Below, piece after piece: positions 50,120 to 64,000 of a stretch of 64,000 nucleotides of DNA; positions within the stretch are counted from its first letter, which is position 1; each line of letters begins with the position of its first letter. The stretch lies in the NCBI GenBank assembly GCA_000026125.1, contig CU207211.1, positions 1,798,001 to 1,862,000 of the forward strand. The letters are read 5' to 3'. Both the position numbers and the translations under genes were made by a program. The notes under the pieces were generated by a model, which was given only the letters and a program-made list of their open reading frames with translations, was not told where the DNA came from and made no database searches. This DNA is from Herminiimonas arsenicoxydans. GTDB taxonomy: Bacteria; Pseudomonadota; Gammaproteobacteria; Burkholderiales; Burkholderiaceae_D.

Positions 50120-50503
50120 GCAAACCCTTATGCGCCTTGCAGGGGCGCAAAAATGAACAGATGATTATTTTTCCTGCTGCAAGTCGGGAATCTCTGCATT
50201 CCCCACGCGCAACAGCTTTTATTCAAAACGAATGCCATCAATACATGAGGACCGACAAAACAGACGTCCATGCGTATAGGGATCTATATATAGTGTAGCG
50301 ATAAGGGATGTGCCACGCTGGCGACGACCGATTCCGGTGCGCACGTAGCCGGAATCCGGCAGGCAGGAGAATTTGCAAGAGCAACGGTTGTGATTGTGGA
50401 AATGGCGAAGGCGCTTCCAGATCGTATCTGCCGGGTGCAAGAACAAACTTTTCAGACAAAGCAAAAGGGGTTACGTCTTTAGAACGTAACCCCTTGTATA
50501 TGC
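50120..50503. other. intergenic region left of the island boundary
   Basis: About 385 bases. It contains an inverted repeat (GATTCCGG at 50330-50337 with CCGGAATC at 50349-50356) without a T run, and the former terminator of the disrupted tRNA (50465-50495). No coding frame was accepted. Confidence 0.4.
50465..50495 (-). terminator. intrinsic terminator of the former tRNA-Arg
   Basis: AAGGGGTTACGT and ACGTAACCCCTT pair around a CTTTAGA loop; on the minus strand the stem runs into TTTTGCTTT. It lies just after the CCA of the tRNA remnant and closely resembles the tRNA-Pro terminator at 8716-8746, consistent with a former tRNA transcript end. Confidence 0.75.
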
Positions 50504-50555
50504 TGGTGCGGCTGGCAGGAATCGAACCCACTACCCCTTGGTTCGTAGGCAAGGG
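50504..50555 (-). other. tRNA-Arg(ACG) 3' remnant, integrase attachment site
   Basis: On the minus strand a CTTGC-CTACGAA-CCAAG anticodon arm (anticodon ACG; one stem mismatch) is followed by a GTGGGTTCGATTCCTGC T-arm and a CAGCCGC-A-CCA 3' end. The 5' half (acceptor, D-arm) is missing and replaced by unrelated sequence. This is what is left at one end when an element inserts into a tRNA 3' end. The integrase begins 150 bases further on. The matching intact tRNA-Arg should be at the other end of the element, outside the window. Confidence 0.75.
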
Positions 50556-50705
50556 ATAAAACATCCTAGAAAGTCCAACATAGTCCAAAATTCGCATAAA
50601 CATACATTAAAACAATAAGTTATAAATTTTTGTTGTCCGACTGCATCCAAGACCGTACACTTAAAGCCAGTAATTTCTAAGGCACATTTAAGGCACGGAG
50701 CGAAA

Positions 50706-52028
50706 ATGGCAAAAATGACGGTACAGCAAGTAGCGGCACTAAAAGCCAAAGATAAGCCCTATAAACGGAATGTTGATAATGGCTTGCAACTTCGCATCGC
50801 CACGAACGGGGTAAAGACCTGGGTTATCCAATACGTTGTTAATGGCAAGCAGCGCGAATACCGATTATCAAGGCCATACGGCACAAACACTGATGACGGC
50901 CACTTGTCATTACTCGATGCCCGCAATGAAGCAGCAAAAATCCGCGCACTTGCACGAGATGGCATTGACTTTCAAATCCAGAAAGAAGAAGCCAAAGTCG
51001 CAGACACTGCTAAACGTGCTGAAGCTGACGCCGAAAATCTAACCACTCAAAACTTATTCGACGAATGGGTTATCACCACCGACCGCAAAGACAAAGGCGC
51101 AGAGCTGCGGCGCTTGTTCGCTCGTGATGTACTGCCCAAAGTCGGCACCAAGGCGCTCAAATCCTTAGCAGAGAAGGACATGCGCGGCATCCTAGATGCT
51201 GTCGTCAATCGAGGCTCCGATCGCATGGCCGTTATGCTGCTGTCCGACCTAAAGCAGATGTTTCGATGGGCTGAGAAGCGCAGGCCATGGAAAAAACTCA
51301 TCGACGATAACCCGATCGAACACCTAGAAGCAAAGCGCATCACGTCTGCCGACTACGACGGAGCCGAGCGCACTCGCACCCTATCCGCTGACGAAATTAA
51401 AGAACTGGCCGACAAGCTGCCAGATGCCGGCCTGCTGAAACGCACGGAAATTTGTATGTGGATCATGCTGTCCTGCTGCTGTCGCATTGGCGAAGTCATC
51501 AAGGCCCGGTGGGAACATATAGACCTTGATGCCGGCATATGGACAATCCCGAAAGAGAACGCCAAAAACAAAATGGCGCACACCATCTACCTGTCGGCAT
51601 TCGCCCTTCCCCGTTTTCGCGAACTGAAGCAACTATCCGGTAAAAGCACGTGGTGTTTCCCGCGTGAGGACGACGAAATGCACGTTTGCATCAAGTCCAC
51701 TACAAAGCAGATACGTGACCGACAAAAGCCGCCGGGTGGCAAGCCAATGTCGAACCGCAGCAAGAAAGCCGATGCGCTTATTTTAACTGCTGGGGATTGG
51801 GTTCCGCATGACCTTCGCAGAACCGGCGCGACCATGATGCAAAGCTTGGGAGTGGTACCAGACGTTATCGAGCGCTGCCTAAATCACGTCGAACCGAACA
51901 AGCTACGCAGGACGTACCAGACCTACGACTACGCAACTGAAAAGCAAGAGGCATGGCAACTGCTGGGCGACCGACTGTCGTTGATTTTGAACCCTGCGGG
52001 CAACGTCATCGTCTTGCGGAAGGCTTAG
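50706..52028 (+). CDS. tyrosine recombinase / P4-type integrase
   Basis: A 440-residue integrase. The N-terminus (LKAKDKPYKRNVDNGLQLRI) is the DUF4102-type arm-binding domain of P4-like integrases, followed by a core-binding helical domain and the catalytic domain with Arg in CCRIGEVIKARW, HDLRRTGATM (His-x-x-Arg) and the late Tyr in RRTYQTYDYAT. Such enzymes insert islands into tRNA 3' ends, which matches the adjacent tRNA-Arg remnant. The catalytic residues are intact, so the island may still be mobile. The ATG at 50706 has a GGAG site. Confidence 0.92.
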   Translation: MAKMTVQQVAALKAKDKPYKRNVDNGLQLRIATNGVKTWVIQYVVNGKQREYRLSRPYGTNTDDGHLSLLDARNEAAKIRALARDGIDFQIQKEEAKVADTAKRAEADAENLTTQNLFDEWVITTDRKDKGAELRRLFARDVLPKVGTKALKSLAEKDMRGILDAVVNRGSDRMAVMLLSDLKQMFRWAEKRRPWKKLIDDNPIEHLEAKRITSADYDGAERTRTLSADEIKELADKLPDAGLLKRTEICMWIMLSCCCRIGEVIKARWEHIDLDAGIWTIPKENAKNKMAHTIYLSAFALPRFRELKQLSGKSTWCFPREDDEMHVCIKSTTKQIRDRQKPPGGKPMSNRSKKADALILTAGDWVPHDLRRTGATMMQSLGVVPDVIERCLNHVEPNKLRRTYQTYDYATEKQEAWQLLGDRLSLILNPAGNVIVLRKA

Positions 52029-55675: not shown

Positions 55676-57487
55676 TCAATTCTGCACGCCCTGTCTGACT
55701 TCCGGAATACCTTCAACAATATGAGAATACGTCGCTGAACGAACCGTAGCCCAGCATTCCGGTTTTTTAGCCCACTCAGAAATCATTCTTCCATTAGATG
55801 AACGTTGCAATACTTCATTTACCTCTACCGCCCAAATGCGAAGTTGCTCGCGAAGATTTAGCGAAATGTCTTGGCGTCCCCATATTTTTTCAAAATCAAA
55901 CGACTTACCAAACCTCTCAGAAGCCACCGCAATCAGATAGATAGTGACGTTACCCTGAAATGCAGGGAACATAGGACGAACCAAGCTGGATACCTTTTTA
56001 AATAGAATAGCTTTTGCAACCATGGTTTTAAATGCCGCGACATCGGGCATCATCTGAGGCTCACCGTCTTTATCCTTCAGACCATCCATGAAATGTTCAA
56101 AATTCTTCTGAGAACCAAGGCTCACTAAATCAGGTTTGCCATCCCATGTATTCAAATATTTTGCCAAATCCGTCTTGCTAATTTTGCGGGATGAGGGAGT
56201 GACGTTCTCCTTCAAATGCTTAAGTCTTGCCGGCGTTGTACCCTCTCGACTCAGCATAGTGCTATAGCTTCCGGCTGCCCTTTCATAAAACCATCGCCCT
56301 ACACCATCCGGGCAATACGTTGAAAGAGACAGTTTTTCCACCTCTACATGGAAAGGTTTATTCGCGGATAAATCAGATTGCTTTACGGAATTCTGACTAT
56401 TTGCATACTTTGATATATCAGCGATAAGCGCTTCTTCCGCTGTCGAATCTGTTGATTTCAAAATAATGATTTTGGCCGGTACTCTTACGCGGCGCAGATC
56501 GATCTCTGGTGATTTCTTTTTGCTAAAGTAAACAGAAGCTGTGGTTTGTCCTCCGTTCACGATTTGCATACCTTTAAGCCAGAGCAAGCCGGGCCCTCCA
56601 TCTTCGGTCTTGCCCATGTATGCTTCATCAGCGACAACGACAATACCGTTGTTATAAGCCATGAATCTCTCTGGGTCGTCCCGCAGAGTATCCCGAATAC
56701 CCTTATTTACCTTACCGGTCGCACTTAGAAATGAACGAACGTTTGCTTCCAGTAATCGAGACCCATATTTCTCATAGATAAATCGCAGGGCTTCGCCAGG
56801 AATGACCGTTAGCGCATAATCGTAATCCGACATCTCGCCAGGGATATAGACACATGGAAGTGCGCCCCCCGAAACTTCTTCAAAATTTACTACTAGCTCA
56901 TCTCGAGGCTTTCCCTCTGACAGATGACGATGCAGTCGTTCAATATCCATCACTTCCAGCTTGATGGTTTTCCCCCCTATTTCACGATCTTTCAGTCGCT
57001 TTGACTTTAACGCAACCTGTCTATCGGTCAGTACATAAATTCGAATTTGGTCCAGATTCGAATAGGCGCCATGAATCATCGTCGCCAAAAGAAACGCATC
57101 ATTAGCTTCATCCATAGATGAGGCTAATTTTCCTTCCGCGCATTTCGCAAGGAACCGCAGACACTGTTCAGCTGCAGCTTTAACATCCTCGGTAGGAATT
57201 GAAGTCAATTCTGTAGCGCCTTGGTACAAGCTAACAAAAAGATCCAGCTGGTCAGCCTCTTCAGATAGCGCGACACCGCTAAGACGCAAATTTGCCCCAG
57301 AAACTTTTGCAGAATAATGACAAACTTGCGGCTCAAATGTCATTCCGTTATCCGCCATATGTTGCATGACTATTTCGGAAAAAACGGTTTCCGGATAGGG
57401 ATAATCACTACCGCCATTACGCAGACGCTCCTCAATCTCGGCCTGAACTTCACTTTGCATTTGGGCGAGAAAATCTTCAAGTTCCAT
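55676..57487 (-). CDS. AIPR family protein (abortive infection/phage resistance)
   Basis: A 603-residue protein of the AIPR family (PF10592). The conserved block QIVNGGQTTASVYF lies near residue 310, flanked by MAYNNGIVVVADEAY and YANSQNSVKQSDL. The ATG at 57487 lies one base after the stop of the DUF4420 gene and has a GGAG site; an earlier in-frame ATG at 57517 would overlap it. AIPR proteins are linked to phage resistance, but their activity is unknown. It is the last of five coupled genes: sigma-like, MORC, Z1, PD-(D/E)XK, AIPR. Confidence 0.9.
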   Translation of the reverse strand: MELEDFLAQMQSEVQAEIEERLRNGGSDYPYPETVFSEIVMQHMADNGMTFEPQVCHYSAKVSGANLRLSGVALSEEADQLDLFVSLYQGATELTSIPTEDVKAAAEQCLRFLAKCAEGKLASSMDEANDAFLLATMIHGAYSNLDQIRIYVLTDRQVALKSKRLKDREIGGKTIKLEVMDIERLHRHLSEGKPRDELVVNFEEVSGGALPCVYIPGEMSDYDYALTVIPGEALRFIYEKYGSRLLEANVRSFLSATGKVNKGIRDTLRDDPERFMAYNNGIVVVADEAYMGKTEDGGPGLLWLKGMQIVNGGQTTASVYFSKKKSPEIDLRRVRVPAKIIILKSTDSTAEEALIADISKYANSQNSVKQSDLSANKPFHVEVEKLSLSTYCPDGVGRWFYERAAGSYSTMLSREGTTPARLKHLKENVTPSSRKISKTDLAKYLNTWDGKPDLVSLGSQKNFEHFMDGLKDKDGEPQMMPDVAAFKTMVAKAILFKKVSSLVRPMFPAFQGNVTIYLIAVASERFGKSFDFEKIWGRQDISLNLREQLRIWAVEVNEVLQRSSNGRMISEWAKKPECWATVRSATYSHIVEGIPEVRQGVQN

Positions 57488-57488
57488 T

Positions 57489-58502
57489 TCAACTGACTCC
57501 AAGGTTTTTAAGCACATCCGTCATCGTCAGATCGGATTGCTCGGTATGGGTAAGATCCACTTCATAACTGGCCTTGCGTATGCCTTGAGGAACTGTTCCT
57601 GGGACAAGTCTGGGAAAATTCGCATCAACTTTGGCCAGCGTCATTTCTTTTTTCATAAATCGACGCCGATAGTGATCTAAATGAGCAGGAAGATATCCAG
57701 CAGCGAGAACTCTTTGAGAAAACAGCTCTATACCAAACTGATCACCATCAAATTTCAATTTCAATTTTTCGATCCACTCTGGAAGACTCAAACCTAATTC
57801 AGAGAGCGCTAGACGTTGACCGGCTACATAAAGTGGACTGAGAACTGTGTCATCCAGTTGTTCCAGTGAGCCGAATTTTGCCAAAAAACCCACTTGTGCA
57901 ATCGTTGACTTTATTTCGATGGCACCAGTTCCAAGAACAAAATCTTGTGGCGCATCCAAAGGGCCAACCCAAGCCAGCGTGGCGTTGAGCGAATCAATTC
58001 CCTCGGAGAGCAAAGTCTCCAGAAAACAAAGCTCTCCAACTAGTCCAACTTCAGCCTCACTACTTAGTGGAGTAGCTCCCTTTCGCATGAACTCCTGCCA
58101 TGCAAAAAGTCGATCAAAAAATGCGCTTAACTGCTTAACTCCCTTGCCGGAAGTTTCACCCTGAACAGCAGTGATCACATCTGCGACCAGTGTTGCAAAC
58201 AGCTCGGAATTAGCCGTCTGCTGTCGGCACAAAGCGAGCCACAAACGCGGTTTTTCCGAATTTTGATTCTCCACGCATGTGACTGAAAATCCGGAACAAG
58301 CGGGTAATTTATGGCTTGGTAATAAGGTTGCATTTTCAAAACCAACAAGCAATGCTTCAAGATTGCCCGGAAAATATCTGGCTGCCATAAATAATAGCGA
58401 CGGTGATCTGGTGGAAATACGGATGCTTTTCCAACCAACGTCCAAAGATTCGCCAGAGAGTGCACGCCATGCCGCGGCCACTTCATCAATCAGCTGCGCC
58501 AT
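57489..58502 (-). CDS. PD-(D/E)XK motif protein (DUF4420 type)
   Basis: A 337-residue protein. A nuclease-like core is visible: GLVGELCFLETLL, QDFVLGTGAIEIKSTIAQV, which supplies the Glu, Asp and E-x-K of a PD-(D/E)XK fold. I recognise the family as DUF4420, which accompanies MORC and Z1 genes in defence operons. Its ATG lies 17 bases inside the end of the Z1 gene, so translation is coupled. It is the most likely DNA-cutting component. Confidence 0.85.
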   Translation of the reverse strand: MAQLIDEVAAAWRALSGESLDVGWKSIRISTRSPSLLFMAARYFPGNLEALLVGFENATLLPSHKLPACSGFSVTCVENQNSEKPRLWLALCRQQTANSELFATLVADVITAVQGETSGKGVKQLSAFFDRLFAWQEFMRKGATPLSSEAEVGLVGELCFLETLLSEGIDSLNATLAWVGPLDAPQDFVLGTGAIEIKSTIAQVGFLAKFGSLEQLDDTVLSPLYVAGQRLALSELGLSLPEWIEKLKLKFDGDQFGIELFSQRVLAAGYLPAHLDHYRRRFMKKEMTLAKVDANFPRLVPGTVPQGIRKASYEVDLTHTEQSDLTMTDVLKNLGVS

Positions 58503-61389
58503 ACTCTTCTTCCCACTTCAAGTGATCAACCTTATAAGCGACCGTTTCCCCAGACTCACTGGCCGGAAAACTAATAGCAAAACCCATTATTGGGCCGCTC
58601 CAATTTTTGGGAACTAACTCTTTAGCTCCTTCGGAGAGAGGGGAAACTGGGTAAAGCAAAAGCAACCCTCGATCAGGAGACGGCGGGATATCAGAAGTTC
58701 CAAGCCCACGGACAATCCTAATCATTTTCCCGCTTGGTTTAGTCGGTTGATTAATCCTATTTCTAGCAGGATCCGGCTTCCAAGCTGCCTTCGTCATATT
58801 TAGCGCAGCCGTCCACTCTAAATCGTCCAAGTCAATTCCCTCATCACTTGGATCCGTAAGTACACCAATCGAGTATTTTCCCTTCCCTAAGGAATTTGAT
58901 CCTCGCATTGGCATAGAGTCCACTGTAATGCCACTTTCAAAGGTATATGCCCCCCCGTTACCTTTGCTCACTCCCATCAGCGCAACAGTCCAAGAAGTCA
59001 ATTCACCGTGAATCACCATCTTCTCGATAAATTTCACCAGCATCGCGCTATTCACTCGGTAAGCATCCTTATGCGTCGAATAAGCGCTGAGAAACTCTAT
59101 TACCGTCTCGTGACCGATGCCACTCCAAACGAATGCACCAGACAATTGATCTTTAGTGTCATCCCGATTTTTTGTTGGCGTGCGCTCAGTTGGAACACCC
59201 ATTGATTCAAGCAATTTGTTCGTTGCCTTTAAATTTTTCTCCAAAGGCACTTCATCCGTATGCAAAACTACGGTTTGAATTAGATCACCACTAAAAGACA
59301 GATGCAGCGTTTCTGCAGAGCGCATCTTTAACGGCGATGTAACGAGAAGAATGTCATGTGCTTTTACCTTCATCCCGTAATCTTTGGGAGTATCTCCGTT
59401 CTGCACCATCACATCAAATTCTTCTCGAAGCTCCTCTGAAGCATCCGCGATATGCCCGAACCATTCAATCAGATCTTCAGTCGTGTATAAACGGCACACA
59501 TCCAAATAGCCGGGGCGATAGCCGAACCATCTTCCCATTTGCATCAGCGTGTCATACATTTTCGAGGTTCGAACAAAATAACTGGTACAGAGTCCTTCCA
59601 AGGTTAAGCCGCGAGCAAGTTTATCGCCGCCAATAGCAATAATCTTCAGGCCTTTTCCTTCGCTGTTTGCATAATCCAGCGCGTCCTTTGCCGTACCGTT
59701 AATCATTTTTACTTCGATGTCCTCAAGCACTTGTGGAAGCGCATCCAAGATGCTGCTCCAAGATGGATTCATCGGCGGTGCAAGACCTTCATCTCGACCA
59801 GCCAGTTCGCAGAACTCTGTATAGGTAGGTTCGAAATCGGTAGTCCACAAAGAATGCAGCTGTACCAGTGTTTCTTGTTGATCAATTCCTCTTAAGATTC
59901 GCTGCCTCATCCTACGAATTTGATTTTCGACTTGTCGGTGTACTTCCCCTTGGACGGCCGTAAACCTTGTCACGTGGATCAGCATTGAGGAATGCTCAGC
60001 GGTCTGTCCACGAAGATTTCTAACCGCGCACGCAATCACAAAGGCATTGACTGCCTGCTCCAGAGATTTCGGTAGCGTATCCACTCCATCCACAGACGGG
60101 ATATGTTCTTTATTATGTTTGGCGGGCATCCAGCCCCCCGTCTTGTCAGCATTCACATGATCAGAAATAATACGAGTTAAAGGCAATCCTTCCGTACGCC
60201 CCTCGGACCGATTGAGTCCAAATATCCGAGCCGGACCCACGTAATTTGAAGGCGCAGCAAGATTAATAATAAAAGCTGAAGGAAATAGATCCGGTCCTTC
60301 ATCCTTTGTTGCATTTCTACGATGAATAAAAACGTTTGCGAAAGGAGTTGCCGTATACCCAACATAGGAAGATTTAGAAAATGAATGCAATATCTTGCGT
60401 ATCCGGCTGTTTATCGCTTTAGGCTGATACTCGTCGTCCGGCAAACCATCCGCATCGTGTATCTGCTCACCTGTATCCACAGAAGCATGATCTGCTTCAT
60501 CATCAATAAGCAAAAGTGGCAACCCAGACACATAACGTCTTCCCGATGAATCGGTAGCGTCTGCGACATGATTTCTGATCCATTTCAACAAACGCTCAAG
60601 AACGGTTTTATTCTTTTTAACGACAAACAACCAAGGACGTTCCTCGGGACGGTTAGCCAAGTGATTTGCAACCTTTGTGTTGAAGTCGCCATTGTTTGAA
60701 CGATTGGTAAAGCATGCCGGGAAAATTTTGGTATCACTATCGATCTCCCCAACGCCGACCATTTTTACTGCATCACCAGAAGCAGACGTTTCGTAGCCAA
60801 GAAAGCTCTCTTCAAGCCGTATTTGTGTTTGTGAACGCAAGTTATTGTGAAGGCCTGCAAGCACAATAATAAGCTTGTAGCCAGCGTCGGCTGCCTTGCA
60901 TACAAGCCCCGAATAATTACCTGTTTTCCCCGACTGCACATGCCCAACCACTAGACCTCGACGATCCCATGCTCCTTCACGTTTTGGATCCTCTAGCAAA
61001 CCTAGGATGTGGTCCGTTGACTCCCCCAAAGAGTCAACTGCTGTCGCTGACATCTTTCGCTCGAGCCAACCGCTATATCGCGACCAGTATCGCCAATCCT
61101 TTTTGCGTGCCGCATTGAGCCAAGCCTCATGCCCTTCATCGCTACTCAGGATGGAATCTTCACCGATCCATAAACTGAATCGACGTACAAGCTCGTCGAT
61201 CACATTTTGTGTATCAACACCATCTGCCATTTCTGGATCTAGAGCTAAAACAATCGCAACCTTTTCTGCAATAAGCATCGGCGTGATCGAACTCTTGTCT
61301 TTGATACGCAATAGCAAGGTCTGGGCAAGATGAACAATGCTATTAAGGTTTTCCTTATTTTCAGGAACCTGCATTTTATTTGTCGACAT
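58486..61389 (-). CDS. Z1 domain superfamily II ATPase
   Basis: A 967-residue Z1 domain protein (PF10593). The Walker A motif GHVQSGKT (residues 149-156), Walker B IDDEAD (295-300), SYVGYTATPFANVF and a motif-VI-like DKLARGLTLEGLCTSYF ... MQMGRWFGYRPGY make it an SF2 helicase/translocase-type ATPase. Z1 proteins occur with MORC-like ATPases, where they are thought to move on or remodel DNA for a nuclease partner. Its start overlaps the MORC gene by 14 bases. Confidence 0.93.
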   Translation of the reverse strand: MSTNKMQVPENKENLNSIVHLAQTLLLRIKDKSSITPMLIAEKVAIVLALDPEMADGVDTQNVIDELVRRFSLWIGEDSILSSDEGHEAWLNAARKKDWRYWSRYSGWLERKMSATAVDSLGESTDHILGLLEDPKREGAWDRRGLVVGHVQSGKTGNYSGLVCKAADAGYKLIIVLAGLHNNLRSQTQIRLEESFLGYETSASGDAVKMVGVGEIDSDTKIFPACFTNRSNNGDFNTKVANHLANRPEERPWLFVVKKNKTVLERLLKWIRNHVADATDSSGRRYVSGLPLLLIDDEADHASVDTGEQIHDADGLPDDEYQPKAINSRIRKILHSFSKSSYVGYTATPFANVFIHRRNATKDEGPDLFPSAFIINLAAPSNYVGPARIFGLNRSEGRTEGLPLTRIISDHVNADKTGGWMPAKHNKEHIPSVDGVDTLPKSLEQAVNAFVIACAVRNLRGQTAEHSSMLIHVTRFTAVQGEVHRQVENQIRRMRQRILRGIDQQETLVQLHSLWTTDFEPTYTEFCELAGRDEGLAPPMNPSWSSILDALPQVLEDIEVKMINGTAKDALDYANSEGKGLKIIAIGGDKLARGLTLEGLCTSYFVRTSKMYDTLMQMGRWFGYRPGYLDVCRLYTTEDLIEWFGHIADASEELREEFDVMVQNGDTPKDYGMKVKAHDILLVTSPLKMRSAETLHLSFSGDLIQTVVLHTDEVPLEKNLKATNKLLESMGVPTERTPTKNRDDTKDQLSGAFVWSGIGHETVIEFLSAYSTHKDAYRVNSAMLVKFIEKMVIHGELTSWTVALMGVSKGNGGAYTFESGITVDSMPMRGSNSLGKGKYSIGVLTDPSDEGIDLDDLEWTAALNMTKAAWKPDPARNRINQPTKPSGKMIRIVRGLGTSDIPPSPDRGLLLLYPVSPLSEGAKELVPKNWSGPIMGFAISFPASESGETVAYKVDHLKWEEEYGAAD

Positions 61390-62875
61390 TGATATGTTCT
61401 TCTGGCAGAGCCGAAATCAAGAAAGGGAAATTATGAAAAGGCTCAGTGGTTCCAAGTGTCAGCTTGGCAAGTGCGCACGACATTCCTCTTCTTGTAGTCA
61501 TGTCCTCATACATCGCGAGCAATACCTCGTTGACGTGTTCATTGGGTTGCCCCGAGAAATTAGTGCGAGGGGTATCTTTAGCCTCTACGGTATCTAACCA
61601 GATTTTCTGAACTGGAACGGTTTCCTCAAGGATCCGCAACAAGACTTGTATTCGCGACTTCAAAGGGCCTGCATCATCTAGAAGCCCTTTGATCGCCGGA
61701 TGCTTTGCATTAATCCGATAAGAAATACCCGCTCGACTCTTTTCAGACAGCCAGGCATGTTCAATTGGAGTCCCGTCTGCAGTTTTTTTATAGTTTCCTC
61801 GGTGAGCAAAGACCCGGCGAGCACGCTCGCGCGCATCCTCTGCGATCAGCATCAGACGCTCTCTAATCTGCACGGGCGGACGGGCTGTCGATTTGCGCAC
61901 ATCGATTTTCCAATCAATATCTGCAGAATTTGGAATATCAAGACGAATCCGAGCGAGTCTATGCGACTCTTCTTTCGTCCAAGATCTGCCGCGGCCAAGG
62001 CCAAGCCAACTGCCGGAAAGCAGCAAGCGCTCATTGCGATAGACGTAAAAACCTTGTTGTGCAGTCCATCCATCGGGGCCCTCCCCGTACAGATGTTCTG
62101 CCTGAGTAAGGCGATCTCGATGAGGGAGAATATGACTTTGTATTTCAATCAAACCACTTGCTGTCGGAAGCCGCTCAATCGGCGACGTCCAAGTAGCGGA
62201 ATGTGAAATAAAAAACGGATCCCACGCACGTACCGTACGTCCGTTTATCTTGATCTGAATACGAGCACGAGCGCCTTCAATGTATCTATGAAAAACCATC
62301 GCCAGATGTCGCTCGACCGTATCAATCAGATCAAGCAGGTCTTGCTCGACAAAACCCGCCGTTACTATGCGATCAAGTACTTCCCAAATAACGATCGTGC
62401 CACTTCGGTCTGGGCTAAGTATTTGAAGCAGATCTTCCGAACCATCCGCTGGTCCTTCAAGGAGATGCCAAGCGCCATCACTGCTACCAGCAAGTACATC
62501 AAGATCCCAACGAAGGCAGTTGATCTGGAAATTCTTAACGGTCGCCACTGTTAAGCGCCTGCATTGCGAAAACGAAGCTGTCTTCAGACCAAGTCCAAAA
62601 CGCCCCAAATCACTTGCGTTCCGTGAATGGAGTGGATTTTTCTCGCCCAATCTCATTGCGAGATCAATTTCCGCTTCATCCATTCCAGTGCCATTGTCAT
62701 GCACACGAATAAAACTCTTGGCCCCATTCCAAACGAATGTAACATCGATTTCCGACGCTTCAGCCGCGATACTATTATCGATAATATCGGCCAAAGCTGA
62801 CGGCAGCGAGTAGCCCAAACCACGGAGAGCTTCAATCATTGCATCAGCACGTGGGGGCGCGTTTCTGGATTTCAT
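61376..62875 (-). CDS. MORC/MutL-type GHKL ATPase
   Basis: A 499-residue protein with an N-terminal GHKL ATPase. The N-box is ALADIIDNSIAAEA (N34), the G1 box HDNGTGM (D60, G62, G64), and the ATP-lid GRFGLGLKTAS. An S5-fold domain and a C-terminal helical region follow. The Glu general base of GyrB/MutL is Asp30 here, as also seems usual in this bacterial group. These proteins dimerise on ATP binding and act as DNA clamps. It starts two bases after the stop of the sigma-like gene. Confidence 0.9.
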   Translation of the reverse strand: MKSRNAPPRADAMIEALRGLGYSLPSALADIIDNSIAAEASEIDVTFVWNGAKSFIRVHDNGTGMDEAEIDLAMRLGEKNPLHSRNASDLGRFGLGLKTASFSQCRRLTVATVKNFQINCLRWDLDVLAGSSDGAWHLLEGPADGSEDLLQILSPDRSGTIVIWEVLDRIVTAGFVEQDLLDLIDTVERHLAMVFHRYIEGARARIQIKINGRTVRAWDPFFISHSATWTSPIERLPTASGLIEIQSHILPHRDRLTQAEHLYGEGPDGWTAQQGFYVYRNERLLLSGSWLGLGRGRSWTKEESHRLARIRLDIPNSADIDWKIDVRKSTARPPVQIRERLMLIAEDARERARRVFAHRGNYKKTADGTPIEHAWLSEKSRAGISYRINAKHPAIKGLLDDAGPLKSRIQVLLRILEETVPVQKIWLDTVEAKDTPRTNFSGQPNEHVNEVLLAMYEDMTTRRGMSCALAKLTLGTTEPFHNFPFLISALPEEHINVDK

Positions 62876-62877
62876 TG

Positions 62878-64000
62878 TTATAGCTTTCTAAAACCGCGAC
62901 CAGGTATTTGCTCGAAGTCAGATTCGATTAGCTTTCTAGCCAAAGTCCGTGTTGTCCCGTCATGTACTTTCTGCAACAGTACCCAAAAATAACCTCCTGT
63001 AGCTCGCTCATCCTTAATCGGAATACCCACTTCCGCTGCTTTTATCGATAGCCAATTTATTTTCTGTTCGCCAGATTCGCGATTGCCAAATGAGTTGGTA
63101 TCACAACGAGGAGTTGACTCAACGGAGACTAAACTTGATGAGCCAATTTCTCCTGTATCCCTGTCAACCACAGAAATTTCAGAAACAGTTGAATCTGCAA
63201 CCCCATTATTCAAATCCGTTCCGGATTCACTATCCAGCTTTATATCAGTCTTAATTTTACTCAAATCTTTATTGGCAAAAATCGCAATATCCTTTCTCCT
63301 GTTTGGATACCTAATTCTTGTAAGTGCCTTGGCCTCAATTTGACGAACCCGCTCGCGGGTAATACCCAAAAGTTGACCAACCTCTTCCAAGGTGTGAGGC
63401 TCGACATTTTTATATAGGCCAAAGCGTAAACGCAGAATGTGAGCCTCTTTTTCAGGCAAATCAGACAAAATCCTATTCAGCACCTTTGATAGCGATGTTT
63501 TGATTGCCAATTGCTCTGGTGTGGCAGAAGGATCAATCAAATTCTCTTCAAGCACCAAAGCCTCATCCTGATTTTCGGTCTCTCTTTCAATCAGATCGTC
63601 AATATTCAGTATCGAAACATTGGCTGCAAGGCATTGCTCAACCTTACGCAACGGCATCGAAAGCGCGTCTGAGATTTCTTGCGCTTTTAAAGATTTACCA
63701 AGAATGTGTTCAACTTGGTTTTTGTGTCGCTCCACTTGATTTATCGATTCCACCAAATGCACCGGAACTCTGATCAAACGTGTCTGATCCGCGATAGCTC
63801 GCGTTATCGCTTGGCGAATCCACCATATTGCATAAGTCGAAAATTTAAATCCACGGCGATAGTCAAATTTCTCTATCGCACGCAAAAGCCCTATGTTTCC
63901 TTCTTGAATTAAGTCAAGAAACTCCATCCCACTCCAACTGTATTTGGTTGCAGTGGAATGCACGAGTTTTAGATTGGCTATTGCCATCTGGCTGCGAGCT
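62878..64000 (-). CDS. sigma-70-like protein with C-terminal extension, 5' end outside window
   Basis: The frame runs off the right edge: the codons before the ATG at 63987 read ARSQ, matching the ARxxMxxANLxLV start of sigma region 2, so the true N-terminus is outside. Region 2 ([40 protein letters not shown]), region 3 and region 4.2 ([20 protein letters not shown]) closely resemble housekeeping RpoD. After residue ~235 comes a polar linker, then a ~75-residue tail ([20 protein letters not shown] ... GGYFWVL) not found in RpoD. It is the first gene of the MORC-Z1-AIPR operon. Confidence 0.88.

Follow-up and report, generated by a model that had tools for sequence, protein, structure and literature searches.

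We analysed a 64,000-nucleotide stretch of the Herminiimonas arsenicoxydans genome (contig CU207211.1, positions 1,798,001 to 1,862,000), hereafter the window, whose minus strand carries at 55676-64000 five genes that we identify from their sequences as the mzaABCDE operon, reportedly described by Gao et al. in 2020 as an anti-phage system (MZA). MZA is annotated as a five-gene system. The loci of its relatives show that two genes outside the span first reported for the operon, the cytosine methyltransferase gene dcm and the mismatch endonuclease gene vsr, belong with it. The near-regular linkage of mzaABCDE to dcm-vsr and the absence of this linkage at enterobacterial loci are new: neither was found stated in print among the open-licence PubMed Central (PMC) papers listed by our searches, and no mechanism for MZA was seen in those we found. 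Since the relatives lie nearly always beside a DNA-marking enzyme, our results suggest that MZA is a restriction system that separates own from foreign DNA by a chemical mark.

Linkage of dcm and vsr to the mza operon

The genes of the operon and its neighbours are as follows (aa, amino acids).
62878..64000, minus strand: mzaA, 3' part, 373 aa inside the window
61376..62875, minus strand: mzaB, MORC-type GHKL ATPase, 499 aa
58486..61389, minus strand: mzaC, third gene in the A-B-C-D-E order
57489..58502, minus strand: mzaD, DUF4420 PD-(D/E)XK protein, 337 aa
55676..57487, minus strand: mzaE, AIPR protein, 603 aa
54846..55664, plus strand: HNH gene, 272 aa
53196..54767, plus strand: dcm, cytosine-5 DNA methyltransferase, 523 aa
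52693..53151, minus strand: vsr, T:G mismatch endonuclease

Profile and Pfam/PADLOC searches found the A-B-C-D-E families in the expected order on one common strand, the same five families in the same order as in mzaABCDE (Gao et al. 2020; PADLOC; NCBIfam). All five window proteins matched PADLOC MzaA-E, near full length for MzaB, MzaC and MzaE. A sequence-only reading of the window had already proposed the five families and the identity with mzaABCDE; the former were upheld by profile searches (Pfam, PADLOC, NCBIfam), the latter by the PADLOC matches and the gene order, and its head-to-tail junctions of 2, -14, -17 and +1 bases were confirmed. Its claim that the genes form one coupled unit gains support from the spacing and from the gene order kept in relatives. 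That reading set the span too narrowly, and did not include the half of MzaA with the ankyrin repeats and region 1, the dcm-vsr neighbours or a shortfall in score: all five proteins fell below the NCBIfam equivalog cut-offs, which are annotation thresholds (models NF041931-NF041935; score/cut-off 761/850 for MzaB, 1286/1500 for MzaC, 358/420 for MzaD, 1009/1050 for MzaE and 319/800 for the mzaA fragment, with the whole MzaA likewise under). We therefore class the operon as a divergent MZA rather than an NCBIfam equivalog; the cut-offs for MzaA and MzaB are exceeded by the E. coli proteins. The locus further differs from mzaABCDE in that dcm, vsr and the HNH gene are linked to it.

To place the linkage among relatives, we took the 80 nearest of 570 confirmed MzaB stretches from GTDB genomes and searched their loci with iterative profiles seeded with the genes of the window. 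Dcm was found in 64 of the 80 loci and Vsr in 60 (both in 58, Dcm alone in 6, Vsr alone in 2), and most of the 14 loci with neither gene are truncated at a contig end. Among the 46 loci with 4 kb or more of flank on both sides, 42 held dcm and/or vsr. At three of the four exceptions the genes lie further out: downstream of mzaE at L040 (vsr at 5.6 kb, dcm at 8.2 kb) and L060 (the pair at about 11 kb), and upstream of mzaA at L069 (the pair at about 19 kb). The fourth, from Enterobacter (L070), has dcm-vsr elsewhere in the genome only (L160). Where both genes are present, they are at most 200 bases apart in 48 of 58 loci. The motif IV cysteine was recognisable in 60 of 65 Dcm frames (49 PCQ, 11 SPEC) and ENV in all 65; the window's Dcm, the sole PF00145 match in its genome, carries PPCQ and ENV. 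As a control, dcm and vsr were absent from 17 of 17 PglZ regions of bacteriophage exclusion (BREX) systems, each 9.6-19 kb long and searched in the same class sample with the same profiles; because BREX itself encodes a methylase and MZA-linked Dcms served to build the Dcm profile, this control covers islands generally and not the need for a methylase. The 17 are the strong matches of at least 59 listed places, the remainder being weak partial matches. Across the 34 entries (ours included) in which all seven genes are present and Dcm measures 480-560 aa, Mantel tests in which host descent was not controlled for showed that Dcm distances correlate with those of MzaB (r 0.57, p 0.001) and of Vsr (0.71); with MzaB held constant, the partial correlation of Dcm was 0.31 with MzaA and 0.25 with MzaD.

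These results bear on whether MZA is instead self-contained, with dcm-vsr (here together with the HNH gene) in the same island but as a type II restriction-modification system of its own, or as a solitary methylase. In favour of such independence, the side and strand of dcm and vsr relative to mza vary among loci, the two genes are transcribed separately from the operon in the window, the HNH gene lies 3' of dcm on the same plus strand, the E. coli and Enterobacter mza loci have no linked pair, and neither gene was present at the 14 loci mentioned above, mostly those cut by contig ends. Against it stand the linkage at 42 of 46 loci versus none of 17 BREX regions, the co-divergence of Dcm with MzaB, and the recurrence of the HNH gene in just 2 of 80 relative loci, so that it cannot be a general partner. 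We consider a self-contained MZA somewhat unlikely, and the HNH protein is probably accessory.

Proposed restriction by a DNA mark and the enterobacterial loci

A restriction-modification system pairs a linked methyltransferase with a nuclease. dcm provides the linked methyltransferase, and MzaD, judged by its residues, is a predicted nuclease with an intact active site: E157, D187, E196 and K198 are all in place and are kept in 75 of 75 relatives. Residues 1-192 of MzaE are modelled as a restriction-endonuclease fold with no recognisable (D/E)xK. By analogy with CglI/NgoAVII (Zaremba et al. 2014, PMC4267653), methylation would shield DNA from the nuclease. The nuclease there combines PLD and B3 domains, in place of the PD-(D/E)XK protein found here, and the accessible part of that paper reports no MORC, AIPR or sigma protein, all of which are present here; as no Pfam match to a PLD nuclease with a B3 domain was found among the nine window proteins scanned, MZA may work like CglI/NgoAVII without belonging to that type. 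The company of cytosine methylases and VSR with MORC operons is described by Iyer (2008), and a methyltransferase is a core gene of related systems in Miller (2022, PMC9523054). Should MZA prove to be a restriction machine guided by methylation, it would rank with BREX and defence island system associated with restriction-modification (DISARM) among the modification-based systems; the term MZA is absent from the accessible part of a 2026 review that tabulates such systems (PMC12904381).

At least 80% of the mzaB-E stretch is held by 55 of 5426 complete E. coli genomes. Two E. coli mza loci were opened, and neither dcm nor vsr was found within 20 and 15 kb, respectively; in the E. coli genome to which L068 belongs, a dcm-vsr pair is present at another place (L159). 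Under methylation-guided restriction, the E. coli form would borrow the host Dcm. The host in which Gao et al. reportedly cloned just the five genes was an E. coli that carries a dcm itself. In E. coli (L092, L093) the mza genes adjoin yecA, with a type I restriction system and further nuclease genes alongside, and an IS421 element is inserted in the mza stretch in 4 of 30 E. coli rows among the matches listed.

Several points weigh against restriction by a Dcm mark. The E. coli operon is reported to give defence with no more than its five genes. The enterobacterial exception comprises two species in our sample, a close MzaB being present in 2 of the order's 394 genomes; from the 56 E. coli genomes with a match, two loci were opened. 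Our Dcm shares 25% identity with E. coli Dcm over 308 columns (40% for the two Vsr proteins), and linked Dcms fall into size classes of about 310, 375, 505 and 690 aa; given these varied sizes and the 25% identity, the linked Dcms may not share a target. Part of the Dcm-MzaB co-divergence may be due to host phylogeny, and BREX is an imperfect control for the reasons given above. Finally, a methylase and vsr can also stand alone as a pair (PMC12907096).

The wider family bears on the order in which the parts were gained. DUF4420 was found in 9 of 369 genomes of the class sample, namely this one, one with a full MZA and dcm-vsr (G531), and seven wider relatives, of which six have Dcm, four have Vsr and none has an MzaA match. 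At four Pseudomonas loci dcm lies directly upstream of mzaB and there is no mzaA at the locus; in three of these genomes, searched whole, the sigma factors found were all of ordinary type and ankyrin repeats occurred in other proteins. Since Dcm occurs without MzaA in most of these wider relatives and at the Pseudomonas loci, the methylase is apparently the older partner, to which MzaA would have been added later.

MzaA, a sigma factor look-alike

The window end truncates mzaA, whose ankyrin and region-1 half falls outside; the whole gene is as follows.
G000:C1:1860878-1863403: mzaA, 841 aa from GTG, or 824 aa from ATG at residue 18

The protein consists of ankyrin repeats, RpoD-like sigma regions 1.1, 1.2, 2, 3 and 4, with region 1.1 assigned by profile comparison (94.3), and a small ZorC-like C-terminal domain. 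Its RpoD-like (group 1) make-up, as predicted, is a resemblance only; the housekeeping RpoD is encoded by a separate gene (L004). We compared 14 positions with host RpoD, covering core-binding, -10, extended -10 and -35 contacts, whose roles we take to be those in E. coli sigma70. MzaAs from 74 of 75 loci were examined (L073 had no match), 73 of them with all columns aligned; all 14 residues were identical to host RpoD in 51 of the 73, and at least 13 in 69. Of 174 RpoD-conserved columns, scored in a motif-selected subset, 46 were kept in at least 90% of MzaAs, 65 in 50-90% and 63 in fewer than half. Many of the lost columns fall in region 3, where the alignment is uncertain, and the region 3.2 finger columns, subject to the same uncertainty, are poorly kept. 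The polymerase and promoter contacts therefore look selected for; for the initiation finger, within the limits of the alignment, no such selection is apparent. Among the subunits MzaA diverges most, with a median identity to ours of 31% (45 of 75 with good coverage), compared to 58, 56, 42 and 60% for MzaB, C, D and E; its nearest full-length relative in a large protein database shares 38% identity with it, against 72% for the nearest relative of MzaB.

The presence of a protein resembling RpoD in a defence operon raises a testable question: can RNA polymerase guide an anti-phage nuclease? MzaA, in a holoenzyme-like complex with host RNA polymerase, might direct the motor-nuclease MzaB-E to promoters on incoming DNA without the Dcm mark; the first transcription of a phage genome would then be the signal for its destruction. 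In E. coli, MZA would on this view rely on the host Dcm, which would gain a defence role. We hold this mechanism to be quite unlikely as it stands, a speculation to be set beside two others. MzaA could be a regulator of the usual kind, that is, a sigma factor dedicated to transcribing the operon upon infection, with no share in the attack on DNA. The conserved core-binding, -10 and -35 residues and the position of mzaA as first gene of the operon would fit this role; on the other side, a plain regulator would not usually carry ankyrin repeats and such a C-terminal domain, the region 3.2 columns of RpoD are not kept (with the alignment uncertainty noted), RpoD-like promoter recognition would confer no special specificity, and no promoter stood out upstream of the operon (1 site, on the opposite strand, versus 1.3 expected by chance). 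On balance, such a role is doubtful. MzaA could also be a guard or decoy that mimics RpoD, catches phage proteins seizing the host sigma factor and triggers MzaB-E. Its divergence would be expected of a phage-facing part, its RpoD make-up is near complete and ankyrin repeats suit protein binding, yet promoter-contact residues would be needless for a decoy and 13 or 14 of the 14 positions checked are kept in 69 of 73 relatives; no phage partner is known, and none was looked for. We regard a decoy as improbable.

The C-terminal domain of our MzaA extends past the end of the NCBIfam MzaA model, and its last 60-odd residues resemble the end of ZorC from Zorya. This domain (L003:881-1090) closes 16 of 60 MzaAs scanned, out of 69 available from the loci, and is possibly a mobile module of defence proteins. 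Nothing resembling the other Zorya parts was found among the nine proteins, except a weak ZorE-type match of the HNH protein.

Neighbouring genes and related systems

The best PADLOC match of our Dcm is DrmMII of DISARM (E 5.6e-97); the DISARM core proteins DrmA, DrmB and DrmC had no match among the nine proteins scanned (for Dcm, among the best 25 of 55 matches). The HNH protein resembles EcoKMcrA (6ghc), a 5-methylcytosine (5mC)-dependent enzyme, by its HNH domain alone (E 3e-5); a 5mC-dependent cutter encoded next to a methylase, as the HNH gene is to dcm, would conflict with it.

A tyrosine integrase gene (50706-52028, plus strand) adjoins a tRNA-like stretch near 50500-50560, seen by eye (ARAGORN reported no tRNA), and the G+C content is 0.458 from 50706 onward versus 0.535 for 1-48000. 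The segment 50500-52028 is likely the edge of an integrated island. Beyond mzaA (L003:4306-14084), DUF932-, YqaJ- and RadC-like open reading frames (ORFs) and an apparent two-partner-secretion haemagglutinin pair were noted by eye. At five Burkholderiales loci (L031, L034, L058, L060, L069) a second, larger AIPR-like ORF (frame about 890-1230 aa, 327-396 bits) lies 3' of mzaE.
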